From contig CAUDQR010000015.1 in NCBI GenBank assembly GCA_958451615.1, positions 1-56,695 of the forward strand: a DNA stretch of 56,695 bases, in the 5' to 3' direction. Positions 111 through 53,383 of this stretch are shown in pieces. Every line of letters starts with the position of its first letter. Positions within the stretch are counted from its first letter, which is position 1. The position numbers were made by a program, and so were the translations under genes. The DNA is from an uncultured Collinsella sp. (GTDB lineage Bacteria; Actinomycetota; Coriobacteriia; Coriobacteriales; Coriobacteriaceae). A model generated the notes under the pieces. The model was not told the DNA's origin. It saw nothing but the letters and a program-made list of their open reading frames with translations, and ran no database searches.

Positions 111-2672
111 CTATTTACCTCCCAACAGTTTCCGCAGTTCAGCAATGCCCGCCATATCGAATTCATTGCCCGTGAGCTGGCCCAACATCGCTGCCAACTC
201 GTTTTCCGCCTCATTAATCTGATTGCACACGTCCGAATAGGTTGTCGCGTACTTTGCATTCAACGCCACAATCTTCGCAATGAAGTCGCCTATAACGGCA
301 TTGGGCAGTTCGAGCAAATCAGACTGCAGCGGCTCAATCCATTTCGCAGCCAGCAATTCGTCACACTGGACATCAGTCAAGCCCTCAATAACCTTTTTTG
401 TCGTCTCTTCGAGCGCGACAAGCGCCTTTTTGCTTGCCTTTTTGAGGTCTTTCTCCTCATCGAGCAGAGTCTGAGCACGAACAAGCGCCATCTCAAAGTC
501 GCCATTCGGATGCTTGCCGATGCTCTTCACGGCTTTCTTGAGGGATGCCGCCACAAGCATGCCGTCATCGTCAAAAACATCGCTCGAGCCTTTCTCCTCC
601 TCATCAAGATTCTCAAGAATCTCGTCAAGCTCTTGAGATATTTCATTCAAACGGGATTCGCGCGCGGTAATTTCCTTGACATCATCAGCGAGCAGCTGCT
701 CTTGGACAAGCGCAAACGGCAAAATGCGGCCTGTCCAGCCATCCTGCACCTCAACGTCTTTGCCACTCTTCTTCTTAATCACCATATTTGGGTCGACTTT
801 ACGCACGGCTTCCCTGCCCTCGGCTTGAATAACCTCGAGGTCACCGGAAATGCCCGTCCATGCATCATCAAGAGCCTGATAGGCATCGTATTCGTCAACA
901 AGCGCGATACCGGAAAGGGCATCATGAAGTTGCGCCGCAATATGCTCTTCTTCGGCCACGGCGTCGACCTGCGACGCACCGTCCACCAACCTCTTCTGCA
1001 GCTCAGCAGGCAGATGCGACAGTGCATCCCGATAGCCGCCCAGAAATGAGACGACGTTGGCGTTGGTCTTTATCGTTGCCGCCACGTCGTCTGCCACAAC
1101 CGCAAAACACGACCCGCCGCCATCGCCGTAAAGCTGGCCCTTCAGGCTCGGCCACACCTTCCAGTAGTGGTCGAGAGCGTCGACCTCGGCCTTCGGAACT
1201 CCCCCGAACATGGTGGCGTACACGTCCCAGCTTTCAGCAACTTCGGACGAATCAACATAGCGCGGAATGTTGAGGTTGTAATCGTTGGCGCGTATCTCGT
1301 CGATGGTCACCAGGCGACTGAACTTGTCGATGGTCGCTTCAGTCGTGACTGCGTCCACGATGCGACGTATATCGCTCGCGCGCAGTTTGTTGTTTTTGCC
1401 TTCCTTCACAAAGTGCTTCGACGCATCCACGACCAGCACGTCGCTGCTCTCGCGCTGCTTACGGAGTACCATGACGATTGTCGGGATGCCGGTGCCGAAG
1501 AAAATGTTGGCGGGAAGCCCGATAATTGCCTGAATATGGCGGTTCTCCACCAGGTTCTTGCGGATGGTGCCCTCCTCGCCGCCGCGGAACAGCACGCCAT
1601 GGGGCAGAACGATGCACATGATGCCGTCGGGGCGCAAGTGGTACAAATCATGCAAGAGGAAGGCATAGTCGGCTTTGGATTTGGGGGCAACGCCGAACTT
1701 GAAGCGCGGATCGAGTTCTTTGTCTTCCGGATCCCAGTTTTGGGAGTAGGGCGGATTCGACACCACGGCATCGACGAACAGTGGATTGTAGGTCTCATCC
1801 TTGTTCTCGACCGTATCGAACCAAGGCCAATCGTCTTCGAGCGTATCGCCATTGCGCGCCACGATGTTGTCGGGGAGTATTCCGCGCATGACCAGATTCA
1901 TGCGCGTGAGGTTGTACGTGTTCTCCTTAAGCTCCTGCGCATAATACTTGATGGAGTTTGGGTCGCCGTTGCGTCGCGCCACTGCCTTGCCGATATTGAT
2001 AAGCAGCGAGCCCGATCCGCTCGTGGGGTCGTAGATGGTGATGTTCTCGCGTCCGAACAGGTGCCATGAGACAATCTCGCTCATGAGCATGGACACCTCG
2101 TGCGGCGTGTAGAACTCGCCGGCTTTCTTACCGGCGTTGGCGGCGAAGTTGCTGATGAGGTACTCGTAGATGAAGCCGAGCACGTCGTAGTCCTGACGAC
2201 CGTCCATCGGGATGTCCTTGATGAGGTAGATGAGGTCGCGAGCGGCCTTGGACTGGCTCCGTGCGTCGGTGCCGAGCTTGGAGAGGCCGGTCTGCAACGT
2301 GTCGAAGATGCCGTCGAAGACGCGCTTGCGGGCAGGGTCGATATTGCGGCTAAAGGCGGAGAGGGCGTCACGAACATTCGAAATCTCGAAGTCGCCGCTC
2401 TTGGCGACCCAGGTGGAGAAGAGGTTCTCGTAGGCGATGAAGTAGCCGCACTCTCCCTTGACGAACTCGACCGTCTCCCCGTCGTCTTCCACCAGGCTGG
2501 GCAGGTCATCCTCGGCGAAGTCGCGCGCCTTCAGGCGGGAAACCTCGGTCTCGGACAGGAACTTGTAGAAGATGAATCCCAGAATGTAGTCCTTGTACTC
2601 GTTAGCCTCAATCTTGGATCGCATCTTGTTGGCGGACTCCCATATCTTGGAGGCCAGCTGCTGCTTGTTCAT
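111..2672 (-). CDS. hsdM: Type I restriction-modification methyltransferase subunit HsdM
   Basis: N6-adenine DNA methyltransferase of a type I system; it needs HsdS for target choice and uses S-adenosylmethionine. The 853-residue protein has an HsdM N-terminal helical domain (about 1-150), the SAM-binding motif [10 protein letters not shown] near 215-224 and the catalytic NPPY at 306-309. The C-terminal third is long, charged and partly coiled-coil-like, which makes the protein clearly longer than the roughly 500-residue classical HsdM and places it in the long-M class. GAGGAAAA precedes the ATG. The GIY-YIG stop codon directly abuts the start, and hsdS follows one base after the stop. No hsdR is visible in the window. 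Confidence 0.93.
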
Positions 2673-3512
2673 CTAGTTTTCCTCACTTCTATAGACTTGG
2701 TTGAGCGTTTCTCCGTCGTCGCTTACCCACTCGGTCCAGCCGTTCTGGCTGCCGCCGAGCACGAACACCGCCGCGGCGCTGGGCGTCGGGAACTCGAGGT
2801 CCTCGGCGAGCTCTGCGATGCCGCCTGAATCGTCGAAGATTTCCCTGCGCGCGGCCGCGACGCCCGCGTTTTTCAGCACGGGCCTCGAGAGATTAACTTT
2901 CGAGCCGGCGAGCACGGTGAAGTGTCCGGTGGCCTTGTCGTAGCGCCCCGTCCCGCGTATGCCGCTCTTCTTCGTGTGGAAGACCGTCGGCGCACCGGCC
3001 GGACCCTGGTCGACCCTGTCGAGGTCGTACCCCAGAGCTGCCATCCTGAAGAGGATCCTATCGTGCAGGCGTTCGACGGCCTCTTCCTTGTACGGGTCGA
3101 TGTAGGGCTTGGGCGTCGCCGAGTTGTCGGTCTCGTACGAGCCGTGGGTACGCACGTAGTCGATGGCCTTCGCCTCGAGAACATCCAGTGCATCCCTGCT
3201 GATGTTTTGGTCGTCATCGAGGAACATAACGGCCTTGTTCCAGAACTCCTTTTTCGCCTTGTGCGCGTCGAGCCGGGCGATGCCCTGGGTCGTCTGCCCC
3301 GCGTAGACGCGGCTCACGTTGCCGTGGTCCTCGTCGAGCAGGTAGTAGACGCCGCGCTGCGGGATGTTCGGCAGCGACTTCGCCTCGGCGAGGTCTTCCC
3401 TCGGAACGACGATGGTCACAAGCGACTCGCCGTCGATGCGGCAGATGCGGATGCGGTCCGGCTGCGCGTCTATGAGCTGGACGGTGAGAGTCTTGACCCG
3501 AATCACGCTCAC
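2673..3512 (-). CDS. GIY-YIG nuclease family protein with DUF4357-like C-terminus
   Basis: A 279-residue protein. The GIY-YIG core is visible as GVYYL at 54-58 and VYAGQT at 69-74, with the conserved downstream Arg at 80 (ARLDAHK). The last 70 or so residues resemble DUF4357, a domain often found beside restriction systems. The start chosen is the GTG at 3512, whose GTGA overlaps the stop of the upstream ribbon-helix-helix gene; a longer reading frame exists, but its extra N-terminus is only the shifted shadow of that gene. The stop abuts hsdM, so the gene is embedded in the RM operon. GIY-YIG domains cut DNA; whether this one restricts DNA, repairs it, or serves as a toxin is not shown by the sequence. 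Confidence 0.8.
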   Translation of the reverse strand: MSVIRVKTLTVQLIDAQPDRIRICRIDGESLVTIVVPREDLAEAKSLPNIPQRGVYYLLDEDHGNVSRVYAGQTTQGIARLDAHKAKKEFWNKAVMFLDDDQNISRDALDVLEAKAIDYVRTHGSYETDNSATPKPYIDPYKEEAVERLHDRILFRMAALGYDLDRVDQGPAGAPTVFHTKKSGIRGTGRYDKATGHFTVLAGSKVNLSRPVLKNAGVAAARREIFDDSGGIAELAEDLEFPTPSAAAVFVLGGSQNGWTEWVSDDGETLNQVYRSEEN

Positions 3513-3721
3513 ACCCCCTTCTTCGCGAGCTCTTCGATCATGCAGGTGCGCACGAATGCCGAGAAGCTCATGCCCCGCAAGGTCGCCTCCTCCTTCGCCG
3601 CGTCGCGCAGTGCGTCGGGGATGCGCAGGGTCACGGAGACCTGTTCGCCGTTCACCAGGAAGCTCCTGATCTCGGTCTCGTCGGGGTTGCTCTTGATGAG
3701 CTCCTTGTAGCTGTCGGGCAT
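3509..3721 (-). CDS. Small ribbon-helix-helix (Arc-like) protein, first gene of the RM operon
   Basis: A 70-residue protein whose C-terminal half (VTLRIPDALRDAAKEEATLR onward, ending GMSFSAFVRTCMIEELAKKG) fits the ribbon-helix-helix fold: one beta strand followed by two helices. Proteins of this type bind DNA as dimers and commonly autoregulate small operons. I chose the ATG at 3721 because GGGAG lies six bases upstream; an ATG at 3733 would add four residues. The stop overlaps the GIY-YIG start by four bases. Position and fold suggest an operon repressor or an antitoxin-like partner for the nuclease; that role is inferred. Confidence 0.72.
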   Translation of the reverse strand: MPDSYKELIKSNPDETEIRSFLVNGEQVSVTLRIPDALRDAAKEEATLRGMSFSAFVRTCMIEELAKKGV

Positions 3722-3740
3722 CTGCGCTCCCATCGCTCGA

Positions 3741-3781
3741 AATGCAATACAAATGCGTTTGCAGCATTATAGCGTTGCATT
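3741..3781 (-). promoter_or_regulatory. Putative promoter and operator of the RHH/GIY-YIG/hsdMS operon
   Basis: A perfect TATAAT (3766-3771, minus strand) lies between the arms of a perfect 7-bp inverted repeat, TTGCATT at 3775-3781 and AATGCAA at 3741-3747. No good -35 box is visible. An inverted repeat around the -10, just ahead of a ribbon-helix-helix gene, is what an autoregulatory operator would look like. Confidence 0.45.
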
Positions 3782-3901
3782 GCTGGCGACTGTTGAGGCG
3801 AATGGGTGAACGGCAATATGGTTAGGCGTGGAATCAAAGAGTCAGGCAGGGACAATCCTGCCAACAACGCTGTCGCGGTCTCGCGTGGCGGGTGCGTTCG
3901 T

Positions 3902-4324
3902 CTACGCACCCACGATCCCGCGCGCGGCACTCAGCAGCTCGTACTCCCCCTGGCTCCACTGGTACAGCTCGGCCGCGTTGACGGCATCGCGACACAGATC
4001 CAGGAACACCTCGGCTCCCTCGCAGAAGCACTCGCGGGCAAAGGCGCCGGATCCGTCCGCAACGCACGCGCCGTCGGCGAAGAGCTTCCAGCTGGACGGC
4101 TCACGCGAGTCATTTCCGAGCAACTTGATCTGCAGTACGTGAGGGTCTCCGGCAACGCAGAGCTCTTCCTCGAGCGCCTGCACCGTAAAGCGCATCTGAT
4201 GGGAGAGACTGCTCTTGACCATGGCCGAGGCATAGCCGCTCGGCTCGTCCAGAAGATGCATTCGTTTTGGCTTGGCTACCAGGTTGTGGAAGTTGCGCTC
4301 ACTGCGCACGGAGAAATTGTCCAT
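3902..4324 (-). CDS. Conserved-looking protein of unknown function (140 aa)
   Basis: Starts at an ATG preceded by AAAGGAGT five bases upstream; an upstream in-frame extension has no ribosome site and was left out. The protein is soluble, with no signal peptide or membrane segment. The middle reads like a beta-rich domain (SHQMRFTVQALEEELCVAGD, LQIKLLGNDSREPSSWKLF) and the end is helical and acidic with several Cys residues (CVADGSG, CFCEGAEVFLDLC). I do not recognise a family. It is transcribed away from the DUF4143 gene, and the two share a 367-bp intergenic region. The good ribosome site and ordinary codon use argue that it is real. Confidence 0.6.
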   Translation of the reverse strand: MDNFSVRSERNFHNLVAKPKRMHLLDEPSGYASAMVKSSLSHQMRFTVQALEEELCVAGDPHVLQIKLLGNDSREPSSWKLFADGACVADGSGAFARECFCEGAEVFLDLCRDAVNAAELYQWSQGEYELLSAARGIVGA

Positions 4325-4541
4325 ACGGACTCCTTTCATCGATGTTGGCAGGGCCACCGTGCCTCTTGGCCGGTTGGCGCCGGGATCGTGGAGCCAACTC
4401 TCTACCCCGACTCTGGATAAAACGCACCCGCTCCTTGCGGGCGCGATGGAGTCTATCAGCGCGCGCGGACACAAATCAAGCGCCGCCTGCGAAATGATGT
4501 ACAGACGGCGCTTGATTGCGCGGCAATTATTCGGCAAACAT
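4325..4541. promoter_or_regulatory. Intergenic leader region with hairpins upstream of the 140-aa gene
   Basis: This non-coding stretch holds two inverted repeats. CCCGC and GCGGG close a small stem near 4427-4441; on the minus strand it is followed by a short T run, like a weak attenuator. AATCAAGCGCCG (4474-4485) and CGGCGCTTGATT (4506-4517) form a perfect 12-bp inverted repeat around a 20-base loop. I could not match the leader to a known riboswitch class. Confidence 0.4.
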
Positions 4542-4542
4542 C

Positions 4543-4659
4543 CGGAAAAGTGTCGAAATCAGCCGTAAAATAGTACAGAAAAGTGTCAAATTCGAGCCGC
4601 CCAAATTACGGAAAAGTGTCGAAATGAGCACCTAGCAACCACGGAAAAGTGTATCCTAG
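4543..4659 (+). repeat. Four phased repeats (33-bp period) upstream of the DUF4143 ATPase gene
   Basis: The motif CGGAAAAGTGTCGAAAT occurs at 4543-4559 and 4609-4625. A near copy, CAGAAAAGTGTCAAAT, is at 4576-4591, and a shortened copy, CGGAAAAGTGTATCC, begins at 4642. Start-to-start spacing is exactly 33 bp three times, while the 16 bp between copies are unrelated. This is a phased protein-binding array (about three helical turns per step), not a tandem duplication. The last copy overlaps a possible -10 (TATCCT, 4652-4657), 35 bp before the gene start. Confidence 0.8.
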
Positions 4660-4691
4660 TGCTAAAACAGCACGTAATAAGGGGTACGCTT

Positions 4692-6014
4692 ATGCTACAG
4701 AGAAAAGCGAAAGCACAGTTTGAATCTTGGCTTGCCTCGTCGCCTAACAAGGCTCTTTTGGTCAAGGGCGCCCGACAGGTAGGAAAGTCATATTTGGTCA
4801 ACGTCTTTGCAAGCGAATCGTTCGAAAATGTCGTGACGTTCGACCTTATCGCCGACGCGTCCGTGCGCGATTCGTTTTTGGCGGCAAAAAGCGCGGATGA
4901 CCTGCTTATGCGCATGTCTATTGCTGCAACGCAGCCGATGGTTGCGAACAAGACCGTTGTGGTTATCGACGAGGTGCAGCGATGCCCCAACGTAGTGACG
5001 TTTATCAAATACCTGGTCCAGCGCGGCGACTTTCGATACATCCTTACCGGATCGCTCCTTGGTGTTGAGCTCGAGGGCATCGATTCCCTGCCGGTGGGGT
5101 ATGTCGAGCAGGTCCAGATGTACCCGCTCGACTTTGAGGAGTTCTGCTGGGCAAGCGGCGTTGCTGCCGGAGCGTTTGACATGCTCAGGGGTTGTCTAAA
5201 GGACGAAAAGGAGCTCCCCGGCTATCTGTATGACCGCTTGCTCAATCTGTTCCATCAGTATGTGGTGGTGGGGGGCATGCCCGACGCGGTCAATTCCTTC
5301 TTGGCGACGCGCAATGTCGACGAGGTTCGAAACATCCATCGCGATCTTCACGCCCTGTATCGCGATGACATCGCAAAGTACGCTCCGCCTGAGCTACGCT
5401 TGGTTATTCGCGATATCTATGATCTGATTCCCAGCGAGGCCGGCTCCAAAAACAAGCGATTCAAACTGTCATCGATTAACGGTGTCAAACGTTTTTCGCA
5501 GGTGACAGATCATTTTCTCTGGCTATCGGAGGCGGGTGTCGCGCTTCCCGTGTATAACGTAACGGCGCCCGTGGCACCCCTTTTATTGGGGGAGCAACGA
5601 AATTTGTTCAAGCTGTTTTACTTGGACACCGGAATGCTCATGTCGTCGTATTCCAAAAGGGTCGCCCAAGGCGTTTTTGATGGGGGGGCGGAAGACGCCT
5701 TTGGCATGAACATGGGGGCGGCGTTTGAGGGCTTCGTTGCCCAAGAGCTCAAAGCCCACGGATTCAGATTGCGCTACTTTACGTCTAAAAAAGTCGGCGA
5801 GCTCGATTTTGTGGAGGAGACGCTCGATGGGGAGGTTCTTGCCATCGAGGTCAAGTCGGGCAAGAGCTTTAAGTCCCATGCGGCGCTCGACAACGCGCTC
5901 GCGACGAAGGGCTACGGAATCGATCGCGCCCTGGTACTTGCGGAATGTAATCTTCACCGCGATGGTGACGTGCTGTATCTGCCCATCTTTATGGCAGGGC
6001 TTTTGGAGCCGTAA
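4692..6014 (+). CDS. AAA-type ATPase with C-terminal DUF4143 (PD-(D/E)XK-like) domain
   Basis: A 440-residue protein with an N-terminal ATPase: Walker A GARQVGKS at 26-33 and Walker B VVVIDEVQ at 89-96. A winged-helix-like middle is followed by DUF4143, which ends in LDFVEETLDGEVLAIEVKSG, the D...E-x-K layout of PD-(D/E)XK nuclease-like folds. The ATG at 4692 is preceded by AAGGGG; an upstream GTG at 4659 would add 11 residues but lies within the promoter region. Members of this family are abundant in gut bacteria and archaea and their role is not settled; defence, mobile-element control and toxin-like functions have been considered. The phased repeat array ahead of it is the striking contextual feature. 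Confidence 0.85.
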   Translation: MLQRKAKAQFESWLASSPNKALLVKGARQVGKSYLVNVFASESFENVVTFDLIADASVRDSFLAAKSADDLLMRMSIAATQPMVANKTVVVIDEVQRCPNVVTFIKYLVQRGDFRYILTGSLLGVELEGIDSLPVGYVEQVQMYPLDFEEFCWASGVAAGAFDMLRGCLKDEKELPGYLYDRLLNLFHQYVVVGGMPDAVNSFLATRNVDEVRNIHRDLHALYRDDIAKYAPPELRLVIRDIYDLIPSEAGSKNKRFKLSSINGVKRFSQVTDHFLWLSEAGVALPVYNVTAPVAPLLLGEQRNLFKLFYLDTGMLMSSYSKRVAQGVFDGGAEDAFGMNMGAAFEGFVAQELKAHGFRLRYFTSKKVGELDFVEETLDGEVLAIEVKSGKSFKSHAALDNALATKGYGIDRALVLAECNLHRDGDVLYLPIFMAGLLEP

Positions 6015-6051: not shown

Positions 6052-7035
6052 CTACTCGTCCCCGTCGTTGGGGTCGCCCTTGAGGGTGTTGATGTCCAGG
6101 TACTGGTTATCGTCCTCTTTTTGCTGGGTCTCCGACTCCGCTTGGGTGGGGCCGCGGAACAGCTGGAATCCCTCAAACGCAATGACGCCGAGCAGGGCAA
6201 TGATAATGGCGATAAAGGCAACCTTGACTGCCTGCGGAAATTCCGAGAAACGCAGCGCCTTTTCCTCGGCGTAATAATCGGCAAAGCGCTCTTCGCCCGT
6301 GCTTTTGGTATACGCCGGCGCGGACGCGGCCTCCGGGTCATATTCCGGTGCAGGCGTGGCAGCGTACGGATCGTTGAGATAATCGCTCGATGCGGTGCCA
6401 TAATCCTCGGTCTCGATGCGACCGGTGCCAGCATAGCCATCGGAATAATCGGAATATGCCGCACCGCCCTCATAGTCCGCGGCGCTCGTGTTGGCGGCAA
6501 AAAGCGGGTTAACTGGAACATCGAGCGCCGGCATGCCGGTAGAGGTCTCATCCAGATCGGTTGCAGCCCAGGAATCGTAGGCAACTTGATGGGCAACGGG
6601 CTCGTCGAGCCTTGCGACCGGAGGCTTGCGTGCCGCAGGAACAGGCAACTGCTGGGCGCTGTACATAACGGTGCTGTCGGCCGATTTGCCCTGCGTCGCT
6701 GCAGCGAGAAATGCTGCCGTCTCGGACGGGTCGCTTGCGGGGCGGGGAGCGGGCGTGGGCGCCGAAGTGGGTGCGGGCGTAGGCGCGGGCGTCGAAACAG
6801 CCGACTGCGCAGGAGTCGGCGCAGATGCGGTCTTAGGCGCAAGTGCGGGATTGGGGTTTGACGGGCGAGCCCCGCCGCCCATGAGTTCGTCGGCGGTCCA
6901 CGGGCGATCATCCATCACGTCGTCAAGGCTCAGCGAAAACAAGTCGTCTTCACCCTCATCGAACATGCGGTGCACATGTCCACCAATTGCCGGAATCAAT
7001 CCGCGACCGGTGCATGATGCCTTGCTCAACGCCAT
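6052..7035 (-). CDS. Pro/Ala-rich protein with one C-terminal transmembrane helix, function unknown
   Basis: The 327-residue protein begins at an ATG preceded by AAAGGGTGG. Residues 1-60 are acidic with a short Cys-containing start. They are followed by a low-complexity Pro/Ala/Thr segment (repeats of TPAPTPAP type), then a Tyr/Asp/Ala-rich stretch. One hydrophobic helix (AFIAIIIALLGVIAFEG) precedes a short acidic tail. With no signal peptide, the likely topology is a long cytoplasmic N-terminal region anchored near the C-terminus. It is convergent with the DUF4143 gene; a small GC hairpin (about 6022-6036) lies between them. I do not recognise a family. Confidence 0.65.
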   Translation of the reverse strand: MALSKASCTGRGLIPAIGGHVHRMFDEGEDDLFSLSLDDVMDDRPWTADELMGGGARPSNPNPALAPKTASAPTPAQSAVSTPAPTPAPTSAPTPAPRPASDPSETAAFLAAATQGKSADSTVMYSAQQLPVPAARKPPVARLDEPVAHQVAYDSWAATDLDETSTGMPALDVPVNPLFAANTSAADYEGGAAYSDYSDGYAGTGRIETEDYGTASSDYLNDPYAATPAPEYDPEAASAPAYTKSTGEERFADYYAEEKALRFSEFPQAVKVAFIAIIIALLGVIAFEGFQLFRGPTQAESETQQKEDDNQYLDINTLKGDPNDGDE

Positions 7036-26698: not shown

Positions 26699-27181
26699 AT
26701 GCGTCACAACGTTAAGAAGGGCCTTAAGCTCGGCACCGATGCGAGCCACACCAAGGCCATGAAGAAGAGCCTTGCTAAGGCCCTCTTCGAGAACGACCGC
26801 ATCAAGACCACCGAGACCCGCGCTAAGGCGCTGCGTTCGGTCGTCGATCCGATCATCACTTGGGCCAAGAAGGGCGACCTGCACTCTCGTCGTCTGGCTA
26901 TCGCCAAGCTCGGCGATAAGCAGCTCGTTGCCGAGATCTTCGACAAGGCTGCTCAGGGCATGTGGCAGGACCGCAACGGCGGTTACACCCGCATCATGAA
27001 GCTCGGTAACCGTAAGGGCGACAACGCTCCCATCGTTATCATGGAGCTCGTCACCGAGCCTTGCACGCCTAAGGCCAAGAAGGCTGCTCCGGCCCCCAAG
27101 AAGGCCGCTGCTCCCAAGAAGGTCGAGGCTGTCGAGGAGACCGCTGCCGAGGAGGCTCCTGCTGAGGAGACCGCTGAGTAG
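26699..27181 (+). CDS. rplQ: 50S ribosomal protein L17 with Ala/Lys/Glu-rich C-terminal tail
   Basis: 160 residues. The first about 120 are a normal L17 (RHNVKKGLKLGTDASHTKAM; RTTETRAKALR-like block). The last 40 are low-complexity: Lys/Pro/Ala repeats followed by an acidic Glu/Ala stretch (VEETAAEEAPAEETAE). L17 surrounds the polypeptide exit tunnel, so the tail would hang from the ribosome surface. It ends the alpha operon, with a terminator 29 bases later. Confidence 0.96.
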   Translation: MRHNVKKGLKLGTDASHTKAMKKSLAKALFENDRIKTTETRAKALRSVVDPIITWAKKGDLHSRRLAIAKLGDKQLVAEIFDKAAQGMWQDRNGGYTRIMKLGNRKGDNAPIVIMELVTEPCTPKAKKAAPAPKKAAAPKKVEAVEETAAEEAPAEETAE

Positions 27182-30056: not shown

Positions 30057-32249
30057 CTAGCCGACCGTATCGTCAGGCGTGGGCGAGGGGTCGGGAGTGG
30101 GCGTAGGCGTAGGCGTGCCGCCATCGCCGCCGGTCGAACCACCAGTGGAGCCGCCCGTCGAGCCACCGGTCGTACCGGTGCCGCCGGTGGTGTCGCCGCC
30201 CGTGGTCTCGGTGGTCGTGGTCGTCGTGGTAGTCGTCGTGGTGGTTTCCTCTTCGTCCTCGTTCTCGTCCTTGTCGTCGTTCTCCGTCTTCTTGGTGTTG
30301 TTGGTGCCGTAGAACTTCCAGACGCTGTTGTTCTTGTAGGTGGGCGCCGTTCCGGTCGCAAACTCCTCGCGCTCGGTACCGGTCAGAACGGTGTTCATAA
30401 ACCGCTTAAAGACAGGCAGGTTGGTGCTGTCGCCCAGCAGGTCCGTGCCGTACTTTTGGATGGGGATCTCGCCCGCGGAATAGCCGGTCCACAGGGCGCA
30501 CGCCAGCTGCGGGGTATAGCCGCAGAACCAAAGGTTGGTGGTGTTGTCGGTGGTGCCCGTCTTGCCGGCATAGGGCTGGTTGACACTCAGGGCGCCGGCA
30601 GCACCCGTACCGCTGCCCTTCATGACGCCGGACAGAACATCGGTGACCGCGGCGGCCTCGCCCTCGGTAAGCACCTGTGAGGGATTGTCGGTGTGCTGGT
30701 ACAGCACCGAACCGGTACGAGAATCAATCTCGGTGATGGCGATCGGCTGGCGATAGTAGCCGCCGTTGGCAAACGTCGCGTAGGCGGCGGCCATCTCGAG
30801 TGGCGAGATCGAGCCGGTGCCGAGCGTCATGACGGGAACGTCCTCGATGTTGTCCTTGGCGGGGTCGATGCCGAGCTTTTTGACGAGCGAGATGATCTTG
30901 CTGTTGCCGACGGCTTCCGCCACCTGGATGTAGCCGGTGTTGGAGGAGTATGCCGTCGCCTGCTTAAGCGTGATGTTGCCGTAGCTCTGGTTGGCGTAAT
31001 TTTGGACCTCGGTCGTGGTGCCCTTGGCCTTGAGCGGCGAGTTGCAGTTGAGGGTGACGTTGGGGTTCATGCCGTTTTGGATGGCAGTTGCCAGCGTAAA
31101 GGCCTTAAAGGTGGAGCCGACGGGACGCTTGGCCGTGGCATGGTTTACGTGGTTCTCGTCGGCGTTGTAGTCGTAGCCGCCCACCATGCACTTGATGTAG
31201 CCGGTCTTGGGGTCGACGACGACCATGCCCATGTCCAGGCCGTCAAGCGAGAGCGTGTCGAGCTGCTCGCGGACGGCATTCTCTGCCACCTGCTGCATCG
31301 TGGGGTCGATGGTGGTCTTGACGGTTAGGCCGCCCTTAAAGAGCACGTCGGTCGAGAACTCCTGCTCCAGCAGCTGCTTGACGTAGGAGACAAAGTAGGG
31401 CTGCGAGTAAACGTCGACGCCGCTGCCCGAGATTTCGGTCACGTTGAGGGTGATGGGCTCGGCCTGTGCGGCATCGTGCTCCTCCTGGGTGATGTGGCCC
31501 AGGCGCAGCATGTTGTCGAGAACCTTGTTGCGGCGAGACAGTGCCAGATCGGGATTGACCGTGGGGTCGTACTGCGAAGGCGAGTTGGGAAGGCCGATGA
31601 GTAGCGCGGCCTCGCTCAGGGTGAGGTCGGCGGCGCTCTTGGACAGATAGGTCTCGGCTGCGGCCTCGATGCCGTAGGCGCCGTGGCCGTAATAGATGGT
31701 GTTGAGGTACATCATGAGGATCTCGTCTTTGGAGTACATGTCCTCCATCTTGATGGCGATGTAGGCCTCGCGCACCTTACGCTCAATGGTCGAGTCGAAT
31801 TGCTCCTCCTGCAGGATGGTGTTGCGCACCAGCTGCTGGGTGATCGTCGAGGCGCCTTCGTGCCCGCCGCCGAGGGTTGCCACCGCAGCACGCGCGATAC
31901 CCCACAGGTCGATACCGCCGTGCTCGTAGAAGCGCTCGTCCTCGACGTCAACGGTGCCCTGCAGCACGTAGGGGGAGACCTCGTCCTTGGTGATAGACTT
32001 GCGGTTTTGCGTGTAGAAGCTCGCGATCTTGTTGCCGTTGCAGTCGACGATCTCGGTGGGCTCGCTCACCAGATACGCGTTGGCGTCGGTGTAGTCGGGC
32101 AGATCGGACAGCCAGCGGTTGACGTTGCCGACCATGCCGATGCCAAATGCCACGCCCGCAATCAGCAGAAAGCCCAAAAACGAGAGCAGGATTATGGGCA
32201 GAGCATGCGTCTTTGAACGGCTGCGTCCCTGTCGTTGGCGAGGACCCAT
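30057..32249 (-). CDS. Class A penicillin-binding protein (bifunctional peptidoglycan synthase)
   Basis: 730 residues. A single N-terminal membrane helix (about 17-40) is followed by a GT51 glycosyltransferase domain (EDERFYEHGG at 103-112; GASTITQQL) and a transpeptidase domain with SxxK (STFK 379-382), SxN (SSN 435-437) and KTG (KTGT 563-566). It polymerises and cross-links peptidoglycan on the outer face of the membrane. The last 70 residues are an acidic run, about 12 Thr in a row, and Gly/Ser/Thr then Pro/Thr repeats, probably a flexible extracellular tail. GGAGGT fixes the start at 32249; an upstream in-frame extension has no ribosome site. Divergent from the U32 peptidase. Confidence 0.94.
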   Translation of the reverse strand: MGPRQRQGRSRSKTHALPIILLSFLGFLLIAGVAFGIGMVGNVNRWLSDLPDYTDANAYLVSEPTEIVDCNGNKIASFYTQNRKSITKDEVSPYVLQGTVDVEDERFYEHGGIDLWGIARAAVATLGGGHEGASTITQQLVRNTILQEEQFDSTIERKVREAYIAIKMEDMYSKDEILMMYLNTIYYGHGAYGIEAAAETYLSKSAADLTLSEAALLIGLPNSPSQYDPTVNPDLALSRRNKVLDNMLRLGHITQEEHDAAQAEPITLNVTEISGSGVDVYSQPYFVSYVKQLLEQEFSTDVLFKGGLTVKTTIDPTMQQVAENAVREQLDTLSLDGLDMGMVVVDPKTGYIKCMVGGYDYNADENHVNHATAKRPVGSTFKAFTLATAIQNGMNPNVTLNCNSPLKAKGTTTEVQNYANQSYGNITLKQATAYSSNTGYIQVAEAVGNSKIISLVKKLGIDPAKDNIEDVPVMTLGTGSISPLEMAAAYATFANGGYYRQPIAITEIDSRTGSVLYQHTDNPSQVLTEGEAAAVTDVLSGVMKGSGTGAAGALSVNQPYAGKTGTTDNTTNLWFCGYTPQLACALWTGYSAGEIPIQKYGTDLLGDSTNLPVFKRFMNTVLTGTEREEFATGTAPTYKNNSVWKFYGTNNTKKTENDDKDENEDEEETTTTTTTTTTTTETTGGDTTGGTGTTGGSTGGSTGGSTGGDGGTPTPTPTPDPSPTPDDTVG

Positions 32250-32411: not shown

Positions 32412-34370
32412 ATGGCGATTCGGACGATGGGGCCGAGCGGACAATACGAGACTGGATTGGATGCTGCCGGTGCGGCGCTGCCCGAGCTGCTGGCGCCGGC
32501 GGGCGGACTCGACCAGATGCTTGCGGCCATCGCCGCGGGTGCCGATGCCATCTATGCGGGGTTGGGCGGCTTTAACGCCCGTGTGAGCGCCCATGGCTTT
32601 ACGGATGACGAGTTTGCGCGCGGCTGCGCCGTGGCGCATGCCCATGGCGTGCGTGTGTACGTAACGCTCAACGTGTTCGTGTTTGACGATGAGTTGTCCG
32701 ACGCGGTGGCGTTGGGAGCTCATGCACTGGAGTTGGGCGCCGATGCTCTGATTGTCGCCGATGCCGGGTTGGCCTGCGCGCTGCGCGCGGCGATTCCCGG
32801 GGTCGAGATTCACCTGTCCACGCAGGCGGGCGCTCATAGCGAGAGCGCCGTGCGGCTTGCCGCCGATGAGCTTGGGGTCGAGCGCGTGACGACGGCACGC
32901 GAGCTGACGGTCGACGAGATTGCGGCGCTATGTGCCACGGGCGTGCCCATCGAGGTATTCTGCCACGGTGCGATTTGCATCGGCTATTCGGGGGCGTGCG
33001 AGTTCTCGGCCCTGCGGCGTGGGCGCTCGGCGATGCGCGGCGACTGCACGCAGCCGTGCCGTTTGGCGTACGACCTGGTGGACGAGGCTGGACAGAGCGT
33101 TGTCGCCGTCGAGGGAGATCGCCTGCTGTGCCCGCGTGACTATCTGGGTATTGCGCATCTGCCCGAGCTTGTAGATGCCGGCGTGGCGTCGCTCAAGATC
33201 GAGGGGCGCATGAAGAACCCTGATTACGTATTCAACGTGGTGCGGGTGTGGCGCCGGGCACTCGATATGCTGTGCGACGGCGCGTGGGACCCCGGTGCCG
33301 TGGAAGAGCTCGAGCGCGAGCTGGGAAGGTCGTTTAACCGTGGGTTTACCGATGCGTACCTGCGAGGACGTTCGGGTGCCGAGCTTATGAGCTTTGAGCG
33401 TGCGATCAACCAAGGTGTGCGCGTGGGACGCCTGGTGGCCGTTGGCCACGAAGAGGTAACCGTTGAGCTCGATGCCGCCGTGGCGGCGGGTGACACGCTC
33501 GAGATTCGGTTCTATCCGGGTGCCGACGCGCGTCCCGATGTGCCCAAGCGCTGGCCGCAGGTGCCCTGTCCGGTGGATGCCGCGGCGGGGGAGCGCGTCG
33601 TCATGCATTGCAAGCGTAAGGTTGACACGGGCTGCGAGGTGTACCTGATTCGCAGCGCCGGCGTGTTGGATCAGACGGCGGCGGTGTTGGAGCGCATGCG
33701 GGCCGAGGCGGATGCGATTGCGCCCGTTGCGCGTGCCGTTGAGGTGCTGCCCTTTGAGGGCGTTACGGTGGATGGCGGTGCGTCGACGGAGTTGGTGGAG
33801 TGCGCGGTTCCCGCTCGCATGGTTTTTGCTTGGCAGCTGATGGATGCCGACCCGCGCGGAGAACTCGATTTGTCCGACGCTGTTGTGGTGCTTGACGAGG
33901 TGTGCCGCACGTGTGACGCTGACTGGACCCGCTCACTGATGCAGCGTGCCGGGCGCGTTGTCTGCCGCAACCTGGGACAGGTGGTGATCGCTCGCGAGCT
34001 GGGCGTGACGTTTGACGTGGCGGCCCCGGTGTTCTGCGCGAATCGGGCCACGCTTACCTGGCTGCGCGGACTCGGTGCGGGGCGGGTGTACTTGCCGGCC
34101 GAGTTGCTCGGCAATGATGCGGAGCGTATTGCCGAACTGGCTGCTGAACCCGGCGTCTGGGGTCCGGTCGATGCCGACCGTCCCGAGCTTATGGTGTGCG
34201 AGCACTGCCTGCTGACCGCCGAGGGCGTCTGCGCTACCGATGCGACGGGACAGGTCCGTTGCCGCGACTGCTCGCGCCGTCGGCAGGTACGCTATCTGGT
34301 CGAGCGTGACGGTACACGTTTGCCAGTTGCCATTGACGCATGCGGCAGGACGAGGATTTTCCTGTCGTAG
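32412..34370 (+). CDS. U32 family peptidase (RlhA/TrhP-like, Fe-S type)
   Basis: A 652-residue U32 protein. ELLAPAGGLDQMLAAIAAGA at the start and the Cys-rich block (CHGAICIGYSGAC, GDCTQPCR) are diagnostic; these cysteines bind an iron-sulfur cluster in related proteins. KIEGRMKNPDYV is another family signature. The C-terminal part adds a second Cys cluster (CEHCLL, CRDC). Relatives RlhA and TrhP hydroxylate rRNA or tRNA from prephenate, so an RNA-modifying role is more likely than proteolysis. The ATG at 32412 follows AAGGAG; the one at 32385 lacks a ribosome site. Confidence 0.87.
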   Translation: MAIRTMGPSGQYETGLDAAGAALPELLAPAGGLDQMLAAIAAGADAIYAGLGGFNARVSAHGFTDDEFARGCAVAHAHGVRVYVTLNVFVFDDELSDAVALGAHALELGADALIVADAGLACALRAAIPGVEIHLSTQAGAHSESAVRLAADELGVERVTTARELTVDEIAALCATGVPIEVFCHGAICIGYSGACEFSALRRGRSAMRGDCTQPCRLAYDLVDEAGQSVVAVEGDRLLCPRDYLGIAHLPELVDAGVASLKIEGRMKNPDYVFNVVRVWRRALDMLCDGAWDPGAVEELERELGRSFNRGFTDAYLRGRSGAELMSFERAINQGVRVGRLVAVGHEEVTVELDAAVAAGDTLEIRFYPGADARPDVPKRWPQVPCPVDAAAGERVVMHCKRKVDTGCEVYLIRSAGVLDQTAAVLERMRAEADAIAPVARAVEVLPFEGVTVDGGASTELVECAVPARMVFAWQLMDADPRGELDLSDAVVVLDEVCRTCDADWTRSLMQRAGRVVCRNLGQVVIARELGVTFDVAAPVFCANRATLTWLRGLGAGRVYLPAELLGNDAERIAELAAEPGVWGPVDADRPELMVCEHCLLTAEGVCATDATGQVRCRDCSRRRQVRYLVERDGTRLPVAIDACGRTRIFLS

Positions 34371-48706: not shown

Positions 48707-49120
48707 ATGAAGCAGGGTATCCATCCCCAGTATGTCGAGTGCACGGTGACGTGCTCCTGCGGCAACACCTTCAAGACGCACGCTACCGTGTCCGAGATGA
48801 AGGTTGAGCTTTGCAACGAGTGCCACCCGTTCTACACCGGCCAGCAGAAGTTCGTCGACACCGGTGGACGCGTCCAGCGCTTCGCCGACAAGTTCGGTGG
48901 CGCCGCTGCCGCCCAGCTCAAGAAGGCTGAGGAGGCCAAGGCTGCCAAGGCTGCCAAGGCTGCTGAGGCCGAGGCCGCTCGCAAGGCCGCCGCTGAGGCT
49001 AAGGCTGCGGAGAAGGCTAAGCGTGCTGCTAAGTTTGCCGAGGAGGCTGCCAAGCAGGCCGCCGAGGCTCCCGTCGAGGAGGCCGCTGCCGAGGCCGAGA
49101 CCACCGAGGCTGCTGAGTAA
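48707..49120 (+). CDS. rpmE: 50S ribosomal protein L31 with long Ala/Glu/Lys tail
   Basis: 137 residues. The first about 75 are a zinc-type L31: CSCGNTF and [20 protein letters not shown] give the four cysteine ligands, ending in the FADKFG block. The remaining 60 are a charged, Ala-rich stretch ([20 protein letters not shown]) likely to be helical. L31 bridges the two subunits at the central protuberance. Normal L31 is about 70 residues, so the tail roughly doubles it. Controlled by the leader upstream; a terminator follows. Confidence 0.95.
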
Positions 49121-52235: not shown

Positions 52236-53383
52236 TGGCCGAGGCTTTAGAGGTAACGCCCGCCGAGCTGGACGCGTTTGCGGACCGGCTCGGCGAGGTC
52301 GAGTCGTATCTTCATTTGGACGAGAAGCGCACGCGCGTGACCGAGCTCGAGGCAAAAAGCGTGGCCCCCGGCTTTTGGGATGACGCCGACGCCGCTCGCG
52401 CCACCATGGAGGAGATCGCTCGCGCCAAGGAAGATATCGCTGCCGTGGATACCGCGCGCGGCGAGCTATCTGACGCCCGCGCGGCGCTGGAGCTTGCCGA
52501 GGAGATGGGCGACGACCCCGATGCCGCCGCATTGCGCGAGGAGGCTGCCGCTACGGCAGAACGCCTGGCCCGCGCTATCGACGAGCTCGAGCTTTCGAGC
52601 TGGTTTACCGGTGAGTTCGATCACGGCGACGCGATTGTGACCATCAAGCCCGGACAGGGTGGCCTGGAGGCACAGGACTGGACCTTCATGCTCTTTAAGA
52701 TGTACATGAAGTACTGCCAGCGTCGCGGCTGGAAGGTCACCATTAACGACTGCCCCGCGGCTGAGGTCATCGGCATCGACCGTGCGACCTTTACCGTCGA
52801 GGGCAAGGACGCGTTTGGCATGCTGCGCGCCGAGGCCGGCGTTCACCGCCTGGTACGCATCAGCCCCACCGATGATAAGAAGCGCCGCCAGACCACGTTT
52901 GCCGGCGTCGAGGTCATTCCCGTGTTGCCTGACGATATCGACATCGAGATCAGTCCCGACGATATCCGCGTGGACGTGTATCACGCGAGCGGTCCGGGCG
53001 GCCAGGGCGTCAACACCACCGACTCTGCCGTACGCGTGACGCATTTTCCCAGCGGCATCGTTGTCACCTGCCAAAACGAGCGCAGCCAGATTCAAAACAA
53101 GGCCGCGTGCATGCAGATTCTCAAGGCCCGTCTGTACGAGATCGAGCTCGAGAAGCGCGCCGAGGCCCTGGATGAGATTCGCGGGCCCAAGACCACGATC
53201 GGTTTTGGCAACCAGATCCGCAGCTACGTGCTCTACCCGTATCAGATGGTTAAGGACCTACGCACGGGCGTTGAGACCAGCAACGTCGAGGCAGTTCTTG
53301 ACGATGGCGACCTGGACCCGTTTGTTATTGGCTACCATCGCTGGGCCACTGGCAACGCTGACGCAGAGATCCCATCTGCATAA
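52235..53383 (+). CDS. prfB: Peptide chain release factor 2
   Basis: 382 residues. The catalytic GGQ is present in SGPGGQGVNTTDSAV. It releases peptides at UGA and UAA stop codons. The gene reads in one frame, with no programmed frameshift site near the start. The codon-recognition motif, SPF in most RF2 proteins, reads SPT here (RISPTDDKKRRQT). One-base overlap with secA (TAATG) implies coupling, a common actinobacterial pair. Confidence 0.94.

Follow-up and report, generated by a model that had tools for sequence, protein, structure and literature searches.

Evenly spaced short repeats directly ahead of a gene raise the question of which protein reads them and with what consequence. Such an array, of four sites, lies in contig CAUDQR010000015.1 (assembly GCA_958451615.1) of an uncultured Collinsella sp., in the 56,695-nucleotide stretch that was analysed as a whole and is referred to here as the window. 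It stands in front of a gene for an ATPase of the DUF4143 family. An earlier note, made from the sequence alone, had proposed four copies of a 17-bp motif exactly 33 bp apart, and had suggested that array and gene may form a self-contained unit. Comparison of the window with related genes, Collinsella genomes and viral contigs makes it fairly probable that the array is a private binding and control platform of the ATPase-nuclease encoded directly behind it. The family-wide pairing of this defence-candidate ATPase-nuclease with a private phased array is real and apparently undescribed.

Results

Phased arrays before DUF4143 genes

The four sites of the window start at 4543, 4576, 4609 and 4642, giving spacings of 33/33/33 bp. 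With at most one mismatch, CGGAAAAGTGT has four matches in the entire 56.7-kb window, every one within the array, compared with a mean of 0.52 and a largest value of 3 in 100 dinucleotide shuffles. Both the coordinates and the shuffle control therefore confirm four copies exactly 33 bp apart. The proposed length of 17 bp did not hold for all of them: the part common to the four copies is approximately 10-11 bp, and the full 17-mer CGGAAAAGTGTCGAAAT occurs in copies 1 and 3 only.

Upstream regions of homologues, the check that the earlier note had called for, tie the array to the DUF4143 gene. A first sample comprised the best 80 of 261 relatives from public genomes, one of which was left out as its match starts mid-protein; some of the remaining 79 loci are near-identical orthologues. 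An 11-mer (at least 10/11 identical) is repeated at offset 33 in 61 of these 79 upstream regions, compared with 2 of 79 inside genes, and each of the other offsets from 14 to 59 reaches at most 9 of 79 (offset 32: 9; offset 34: 7). An enlarged set held 219 distinct full-length DUF4143 genes, 215 of them with at least 150 nt upstream. Here a strong three-copy period was found in 115 of 215 upstream, 0 of 215 in-gene and 6 of 153 downstream regions, the 115 periods being 33 (71 genes), 23 (22), 32 (10), 34 (4) or elsewhere (8). Arrays at 33±1 or 23±1 bp were called before 123 of the 215 distinct genes and 100 of the 185 non-redundant ones by a chain caller whose threshold was set to the 99th percentile of the in-gene values, which places this control at about 1% by construction. 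The arrays comprise 3-6 sites, spaced 33±1 bp in one protein clade and 23±1 bp in another, and most examined genes of those two clades are preceded by them. The period of 33 bp is thus one of two, a point absent from the earlier note, as are the change of motif from gene to gene, the many family members lacking a called array and the arrays that outlast the gene. The note's interpretation of a near-invariant spacing of about three helical turns is upheld.

Non-target genes of the same loci served as a control, in which 19 of 273 upstream regions displayed a strong period. Four of these matches, at 33-34, proved to be DUF4143 genes earlier dropped as duplicates or partial; none of the remaining 269 regions had a strong period at 32-34, whereas a single one had it at 23 and 14 had it elsewhere. 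The repeat of 23-bp period upstream of a histidine-kinase gene was rejected as an ordinary tandem repeat. On a tree of the 185 non-redundant genes (74 with period 33, 26 with period 23 and 85 without a called array), the period class changes label 30 times, compared with 76 on average and never fewer than 66 in 300 shuffles. The array period is characteristic of a protein clade and follows the protein tree. The 33 class lies mostly close to the window protein and the 23 class is more distant; examples of the latter are L018, L021, L132, L134, L139, L147, L175, L176, L206, L229 and others.

Spacings within the arrays are 33 (147), 23 (64), 32 (32), 34 (9), 22 (7) and 24 (2). In the 33 class, copy-to-copy agreement is 0.82-0.90 over approximately 12 columns, which were picked by the caller, and 0.35-0.64 elsewhere. 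From the end of the last copy to the start codon the median distance is 34 bp, arrays having been sought within 250 bp upstream. A held-out test used 16 genes from named plasmid or phage records, selected from 52 listed. Arrays were called before 10 of the 16, all at 33, compared with 0 of 16 in the in-gene control. The positives came from Segatella hominis, Prevotella, one of two Parabacteroides, Agathobacter, Glaesserella and, marginally, Fusobacterium vincentii, and include all four phage records from faeces, which are unverified and may consist of bacterial DNA. Array and gene behave as a pair, as the earlier note had suggested in treating them as a possible unit.

A motif private to each gene

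The period is shared within a class; the motif differs between paralogues of one genome. An Akkermansiaceae genome carries arrays before 12 of 19 examined genes, for which the best motif-pair match has a median of 5/12 and a maximum of 9, and a second genome carries them before 7 of 17 genes (median 5/12, maximum 7). Motif similarity drops as protein identity drops: within the 33 class its mean is 0.66 at 75-90% protein identity (8 pairs) and 0.28 at 25-35% (1181 pairs).

Specificity for the gene was also evident from the distribution of exact pairs. Of 43 Collinsella genomes, 14 contain such pairs of the window motif at 33 bp, solely at this locus, and 10 contain those of a second family's motif, followed directly by a DUF4143 frame in 10/10. 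For these two Collinsella families the motif is therefore not equally frequent away from the family, the observation that the earlier note had named as refuting the link. A scan of 296 Actinomycetota genomes for GAAAAGTG repeated at 33 bp had two matches, of which one, at recA, was taken as chance and the other stands before a DUF4143 gene (L106). As would be expected of an operator, the array is found in front of its gene and is specific to it, with the arrays described next as the exception.

Arrays without the gene in Collinsella

The locus was compared via both flanks in the 43 Collinsella genomes; the right flank is present in 22 of them, and neither flank in the other 21. Gene and array occur together in the window and in eight genomes (G001, G397, G398, G401, G413, G418, G425 and G426), the gene being taken from public records for five of these. 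An array without an intact gene is present at 12 loci (L256-L265, L272 and L273) in 12 genomes (G395, G396, G399, G402, G404, G405, G406, G412, G414, G416, G423 and G424), with two copies in G395 and G416 and three or four in the other ten. G403 has neither array nor gene. In G400 (L269) a decayed array, with indels in copies 1 and 3, stands before an unrelated gene and provides an internal control for decay. In G414 the locus is interrupted by restriction-modification (R-M) sequence, and both neighbour and array are duplicated; the second array and a 60-residue gene remnant lie beside the R-M sequence.

The orphan copies are better preserved than those with a gene. All 27 of 27 are perfect in nine distinct alleles, compared with 20 of 36 gene-linked copies in nine alleles, where copies 1 and 3 are more degenerate; G400 and the G414 remnant, kept out of this comparison, together have four perfect copies out of 8. 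Both the possible -10 element TATCCT and the sequence AAGGGG ahead of the start codon are changed in the orphan alleles. Between L256 and L272 the flanks differ at 19 of 117 and 14 of 68 sites (approximately 16-21%), the motifs at 0 of 33, and in all five pairs of orphan alleles compared, this one included, the motifs differ at 0 of 33 sites while the 120 bp upstream differ at 11-26. Perfect copies in such company point to selection on the array itself, and the arrays may be retained in their own right, perhaps as decoys. The alleles occupy a single place and may have a single origin, and therefore represent few independent events.

A reader acting in trans was sought in the same genomes. Queried with the window protein, the 13 genomes concerned yielded no orthologue, G395 having no match at all; the best relatives in those 13, the G414 remnant aside, are at most 42% identical. 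From part of the matches, 18 DUF4143 relatives were checked in 11 genomes (ten with orphan arrays, and G403; G406 and G395 lay outside this set). Fourteen have an array of their own with another motif and four have none called. No GGAAAAGTGT with at most one mismatch was found in the 250 bp upstream of the 18 relatives, the nearest sequence being CCGGAAAAGCTG at 32 bp in G405. G396, G399 and G423 (L286, L287 and L295) each hold a 144-aa C-terminal fragment of a different DUF4143 gene, devoid of the ATPase part, approximately 0.7 kb before the orphan array. A divergent neighbour of the array lies at 3902-4321 on the minus strand of the window. Its regulation by the orphan arrays was rejected as weak in G395 and G416, because there the neighbour lacks a start and yet both remaining copies are intact.

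Pairs at 33 bp in viral contigs

Exact matches to GGAAAAGTGT spaced 33 bp apart were located in seven viral stretches, six of them distinct, whereas spacings of 30 and 36 bp and the reversed motif each gave 0; the pairs of L313 and L315 look like local tandem repeats. No DUF4143 match was found in these seven records, which may be fragments. The shorter GAAAAGTG gave at least 120 viral pairs at 33 bp, 31 at 36 bp and 14 at 37 bp. Distinct pairs outside open frames of 100 aa number 31 of 89, 8 of 26 and 6 of 12, respectively. A DUF4143 gene stands directly behind the pair in one of the at least 120 stretches and 4.5 kb off in another. Pairs at 33 bp are thus over-represented in viral contigs, and with GAAAAGTG many lie in open frames. 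They may be decoy arrays or sites of an unrelated phage regulator, and many may be the latter. GCAGAAAAGTG pairs 33 bp apart were also observed in IMG/VR (L321, L341, L356, L334, L367, L377 and L389), with no DUF4143 in the stretch. Three non-coding pairs, in the related contigs L321, L341 and L356, stand before a C-5 cytosine methylase, the family having been tested on L321 only.

The encoded protein and its surroundings

The features of the locus are listed in Table 1. The ATG at 4692 is a likelier start than the mechanical GTG at 4659, because the conserved M-L-x-R-K of the homologues begins there. The window protein matches the Pfam families AAA_14 (93 bits, cut-off 27) and DUF4143 (90.2 bits, cut-off 28.1), and the PADLOC profile PDLC04792 (PDC-S01) over residues 1-439 with 550 bits (E 6e-166). 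NCBIfam gave no match for it, and by sequence no solved relative was found except for a 43-residue match to midasin.

Table 1. Sites of the array, putative promoter element and ATPase gene in the window
Feature	Positions	Strand	Remark
Array copy 1, CGGAAAAGTGT	4543..4553	+	17-mer runs on to 4559
Array copy 2, CAGAAAAGTGT, one mismatch	4576..4586	+	
Array copy 3, CGGAAAAGTGT	4609..4619	+	17-mer runs on to 4625
Array copy 4, CGGAAAAGTGT, nearest the gene	4642..4652	+	perfect in 9/9 distinct gene-linked Collinsella alleles
TATCCT, possible -10 element abutting copy 4	4652..4657	+	inferred promoter; altered in gene-less alleles
AAA_14 + DUF4143 ATPase, PADLOC candidate PDC-S01	4692..6014	+	440 aa

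Walker A occupies residues 26-32 and Walker B residues 93-94, numbered from the ATG at 4692. For the alignment 57 entries were chosen and five dropped for stop codons, leaving 52 relatives, in all of which E346, D372, E386 and K388 of the PD-(D/E)XK motif are invariant (52/52); the core Walker A and Walker B residues are likewise invariant. The PD-(D/E)XK-like C-terminus described earlier is borne out by these residues, and since all four are invariant the nuclease is likely active. An AlphaFold model of the ATPase has a mean predicted local distance difference test (pLDDT) score of 91. Its secondary structure includes helices at 236-250 and 272-280 and strands at 284-290 and 301-310. From this predicted secondary structure, the region of approximately 236-310, between the ATPase and nuclease domains, is predicted to be a winged helix; the nuclease-type fold is likewise putative, at the level of predicted secondary structure.

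Around the gene, positions 111-4321 of the window and L293 present a defence island, with a type I methyltransferase, a DUF4357 protein matching PDC-S14 and a small gene, followed by the array. The neighbours that match a type I methyltransferase and PDC-S14 hint at a role in phage defence, which is only suggestive. No replication or partition family and no cas family was matched among the neighbouring proteins scanned. Other tandem repeats of the window lie at 6740-6792, 27128-27176, 30126-30172, 32707-32764, 48926-48969 and 52393-52441.

Discussion

Proposed function of the array

Because array and gene are paired, the motif is private and the period follows the tree, we infer that the encoded protein reads the array. 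The ATPase would bind its own sites through the predicted winged helix between the ATPase and nuclease domains. The period would reflect protomers aligned on one face of the DNA, approximately three or two helical turns apart, and the modes of 33 and 23 bp, which differ by about one helical turn, would fit such an arrangement. Since the last site abuts the start region, the bound protein might repress its own promoter and stay poised. A signal from infection or foreign DNA would change its ATP state or titrate the protein, leading to release, and release would raise expression and free the nuclease. A separate motif for each paralogue would prevent cross-talk among copies in one genome. Autorepression and release on infection are putative steps of this proposal.

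A clue from expression comes from Thermus, where the DUF4143 gene TT_P0211 is up 6.6-fold with plasmid in an Argonaute-positive strain, according to PMC4406477. Several other observations weigh against the control-platform proposal. The Argonaute deletion strain displayed no such change with plasmid (PMC4406477). At the promoter, the earlier note had placed the last copy over the likely promoter, which is plausible as far as TATCCT abuts copy 4, but a promoter scan of 4300-4750 gave no sigma-70-type promoter above threshold, and across the family no fixed distance was found between TATAAT-like sequences and the last copy. No array was called before 85 of the 185 non-redundant genes, among them, as counted in printed tree order, 26 of 28 genes in a clade of mostly 380-410-aa proteins (L107-L111, L113, L115-L120 and relatives). 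The held-out test gave no call in 6 of 16: Vescimonas, Fusobacterium animalis, Acinetobacter towneri, Ruminococcus albus, the second Parabacteroides and Segatella copri, where Vescimonas has two perfect copies, below the caller threshold. Regarding the proposed reading domain, a windowed correlation of residues with motif did not single out the winged helix, and in an analysis of residue-motif mutual information this region contributed 1 of the top 30 pairs compared with 5.6 expected, the nuclease domain contributing 14 compared with 8.7 expected by size. The specificity domain was thus localised neither by correlation nor by mutual information. Finally, autoregulation alone does not explain perfect arrays in gene-less strains.

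Alternative explanations

The last of these points bears on a different use of the same contact. The ATPase may read the array for a main purpose other than repression, with the sites as a platform for assembly or activation, a self tag restraining the nuclease or a sensor of DNA integrity, and expression secondary; this we regard as rather unlikely, yet deserving of weight. It would accommodate the perfect arrays that persist in gene-less strains though TATCCT and AAGGGG have changed, the identical motifs of L256 and L272 within diverged flanks, the lack of a fixed position relative to promoter-like sequences, and the nuclease residues invariant in every aligned relative. The median of 34 bp between last copy and start codon is, however, the usual place for regulation, and cleavage or protection is purely hypothetical at the level of sequence. 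A step further, and slightly less likely still, the array could serve as an inherited mark of identity in a self/non-self or addiction system. In cells with the gene, their own array would restrain the nuclease, gene-less cells would keep a perfect, high-affinity array as decoy or immunity element against re-acquired copies, and some phages would carry anti-defence decoys. The arrays of the gene-less strains may be no more than relics, left by recent gene loss with the sites yet to decay, to which we give a little under an even chance. The 12 orphan loci share a chromosomal place and similar junctions, which could mean few events and possibly interspecies recombination, and only nine distinct orphan alleles are available. 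A relic would not readily explain why orphan copies are perfect more often than gene-linked ones, why five pairs of alleles agree at every motif site but not in the 120 bp upstream, or why the G400 array, with another gene behind it, has decayed with indels.

The persistence of arrays where the ATPase is absent could also indicate that a different, host-encoded regulator binds them and controls the ATPase gene, and operators often bind unrelated regulators. This is very unlikely: paralogues of one genome have different motifs at one period, so that one host factor per paralogue would be required, which is implausible; the period class tracks the ATPase tree; and in plasmid and phage records from several phyla the gene is again found with arrays. 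Least credible of all, and barely to be entertained, is an artefact of CRISPR-like repeats, tandem duplication or protein repeats. It is true that 33 is divisible by 3 and that an open frame of at least 100 aa encloses 58 of the 89 distinct viral pairs at 33 bp. Conservation confined to approximately 12 columns is nevertheless unlike slipped duplications or repeat-spacer arrays, and periods of 32, 34 and 23 are found as well.

Relation to known systems

The closest known counterpart is PDC-S01 (S01), an ATPase plus PD-(D/E)XK, which PMC12988326 places fourth in frequency among the defences of all prokaryotes, validation being pending for most such PADLOC candidates. It is also the most frequent individual locus in rumen genomes, as stated in PMC13356809. 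Both PDC-S01 and the window protein, which matches its models (E 6e-166), are single-gene phage defence candidates; upstream arrays, periods, private motifs and orphan arrays do not figure in the passages of PMC12988326 that describe it. The literature searched on DUF4143, COG1373, PDC-S01, phage defence candidates and 33-bp repeats yielded no account of the arrays, subscription papers and preprints lying outside the search.

Other systems resemble the arrangement in part. MalT is a STAND activator, an ATP-switched NTPase that multimerises on direct-repeat MalT boxes near the promoter. It shares with the present case the ATP-switched NTPase and direct repeats near a promoter, but activates a regulon and has no nuclease, whereas exact 33-bp pairs here occur only at the family's own locus. 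A MalT-type STAND protein would have a LuxR-type C-terminal domain and a regulon; only AAA_14 and DUF4143 were found in the window protein. The autorepression operators of toxin-antitoxin systems and R-M controllers are usually palindromes bound by a small dedicated protein. They are likewise private, stand before their own gene and are orthogonal between paralogues, but here the sites are direct repeats with a helical-turn period and the putative binder is a large ATPase-nuclease. Iteron arrays and Orc1/Cdc6 or DnaA boxes are evenly spaced direct repeats bound by an ATPase or initiator and often autoregulatory. The even spacing of direct repeats is common to both; the differences here are a chromosomal gene, conserved periods of 33 and 23 and a freely varying motif. 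A CRISPR array has long identical repeats, unique spacers and cas genes, unlike the approximately 12 conserved columns found here.

Significance

A private array would supply for each protein a predicted ligand and a reporter, and for PDC-S01 a way of pairing proteins with their sites from sequence. The combination of a conserved period and a motif free to change provides a large collection of natural variants from which to learn how such an enzyme recognises DNA. Should orphan arrays be under selection, bacteria would be retaining antidote-like DNA directed at a gene that they have lost. If the array does serve as an identity tag, one of the commonest unvalidated defence candidates would work via a private DNA address.
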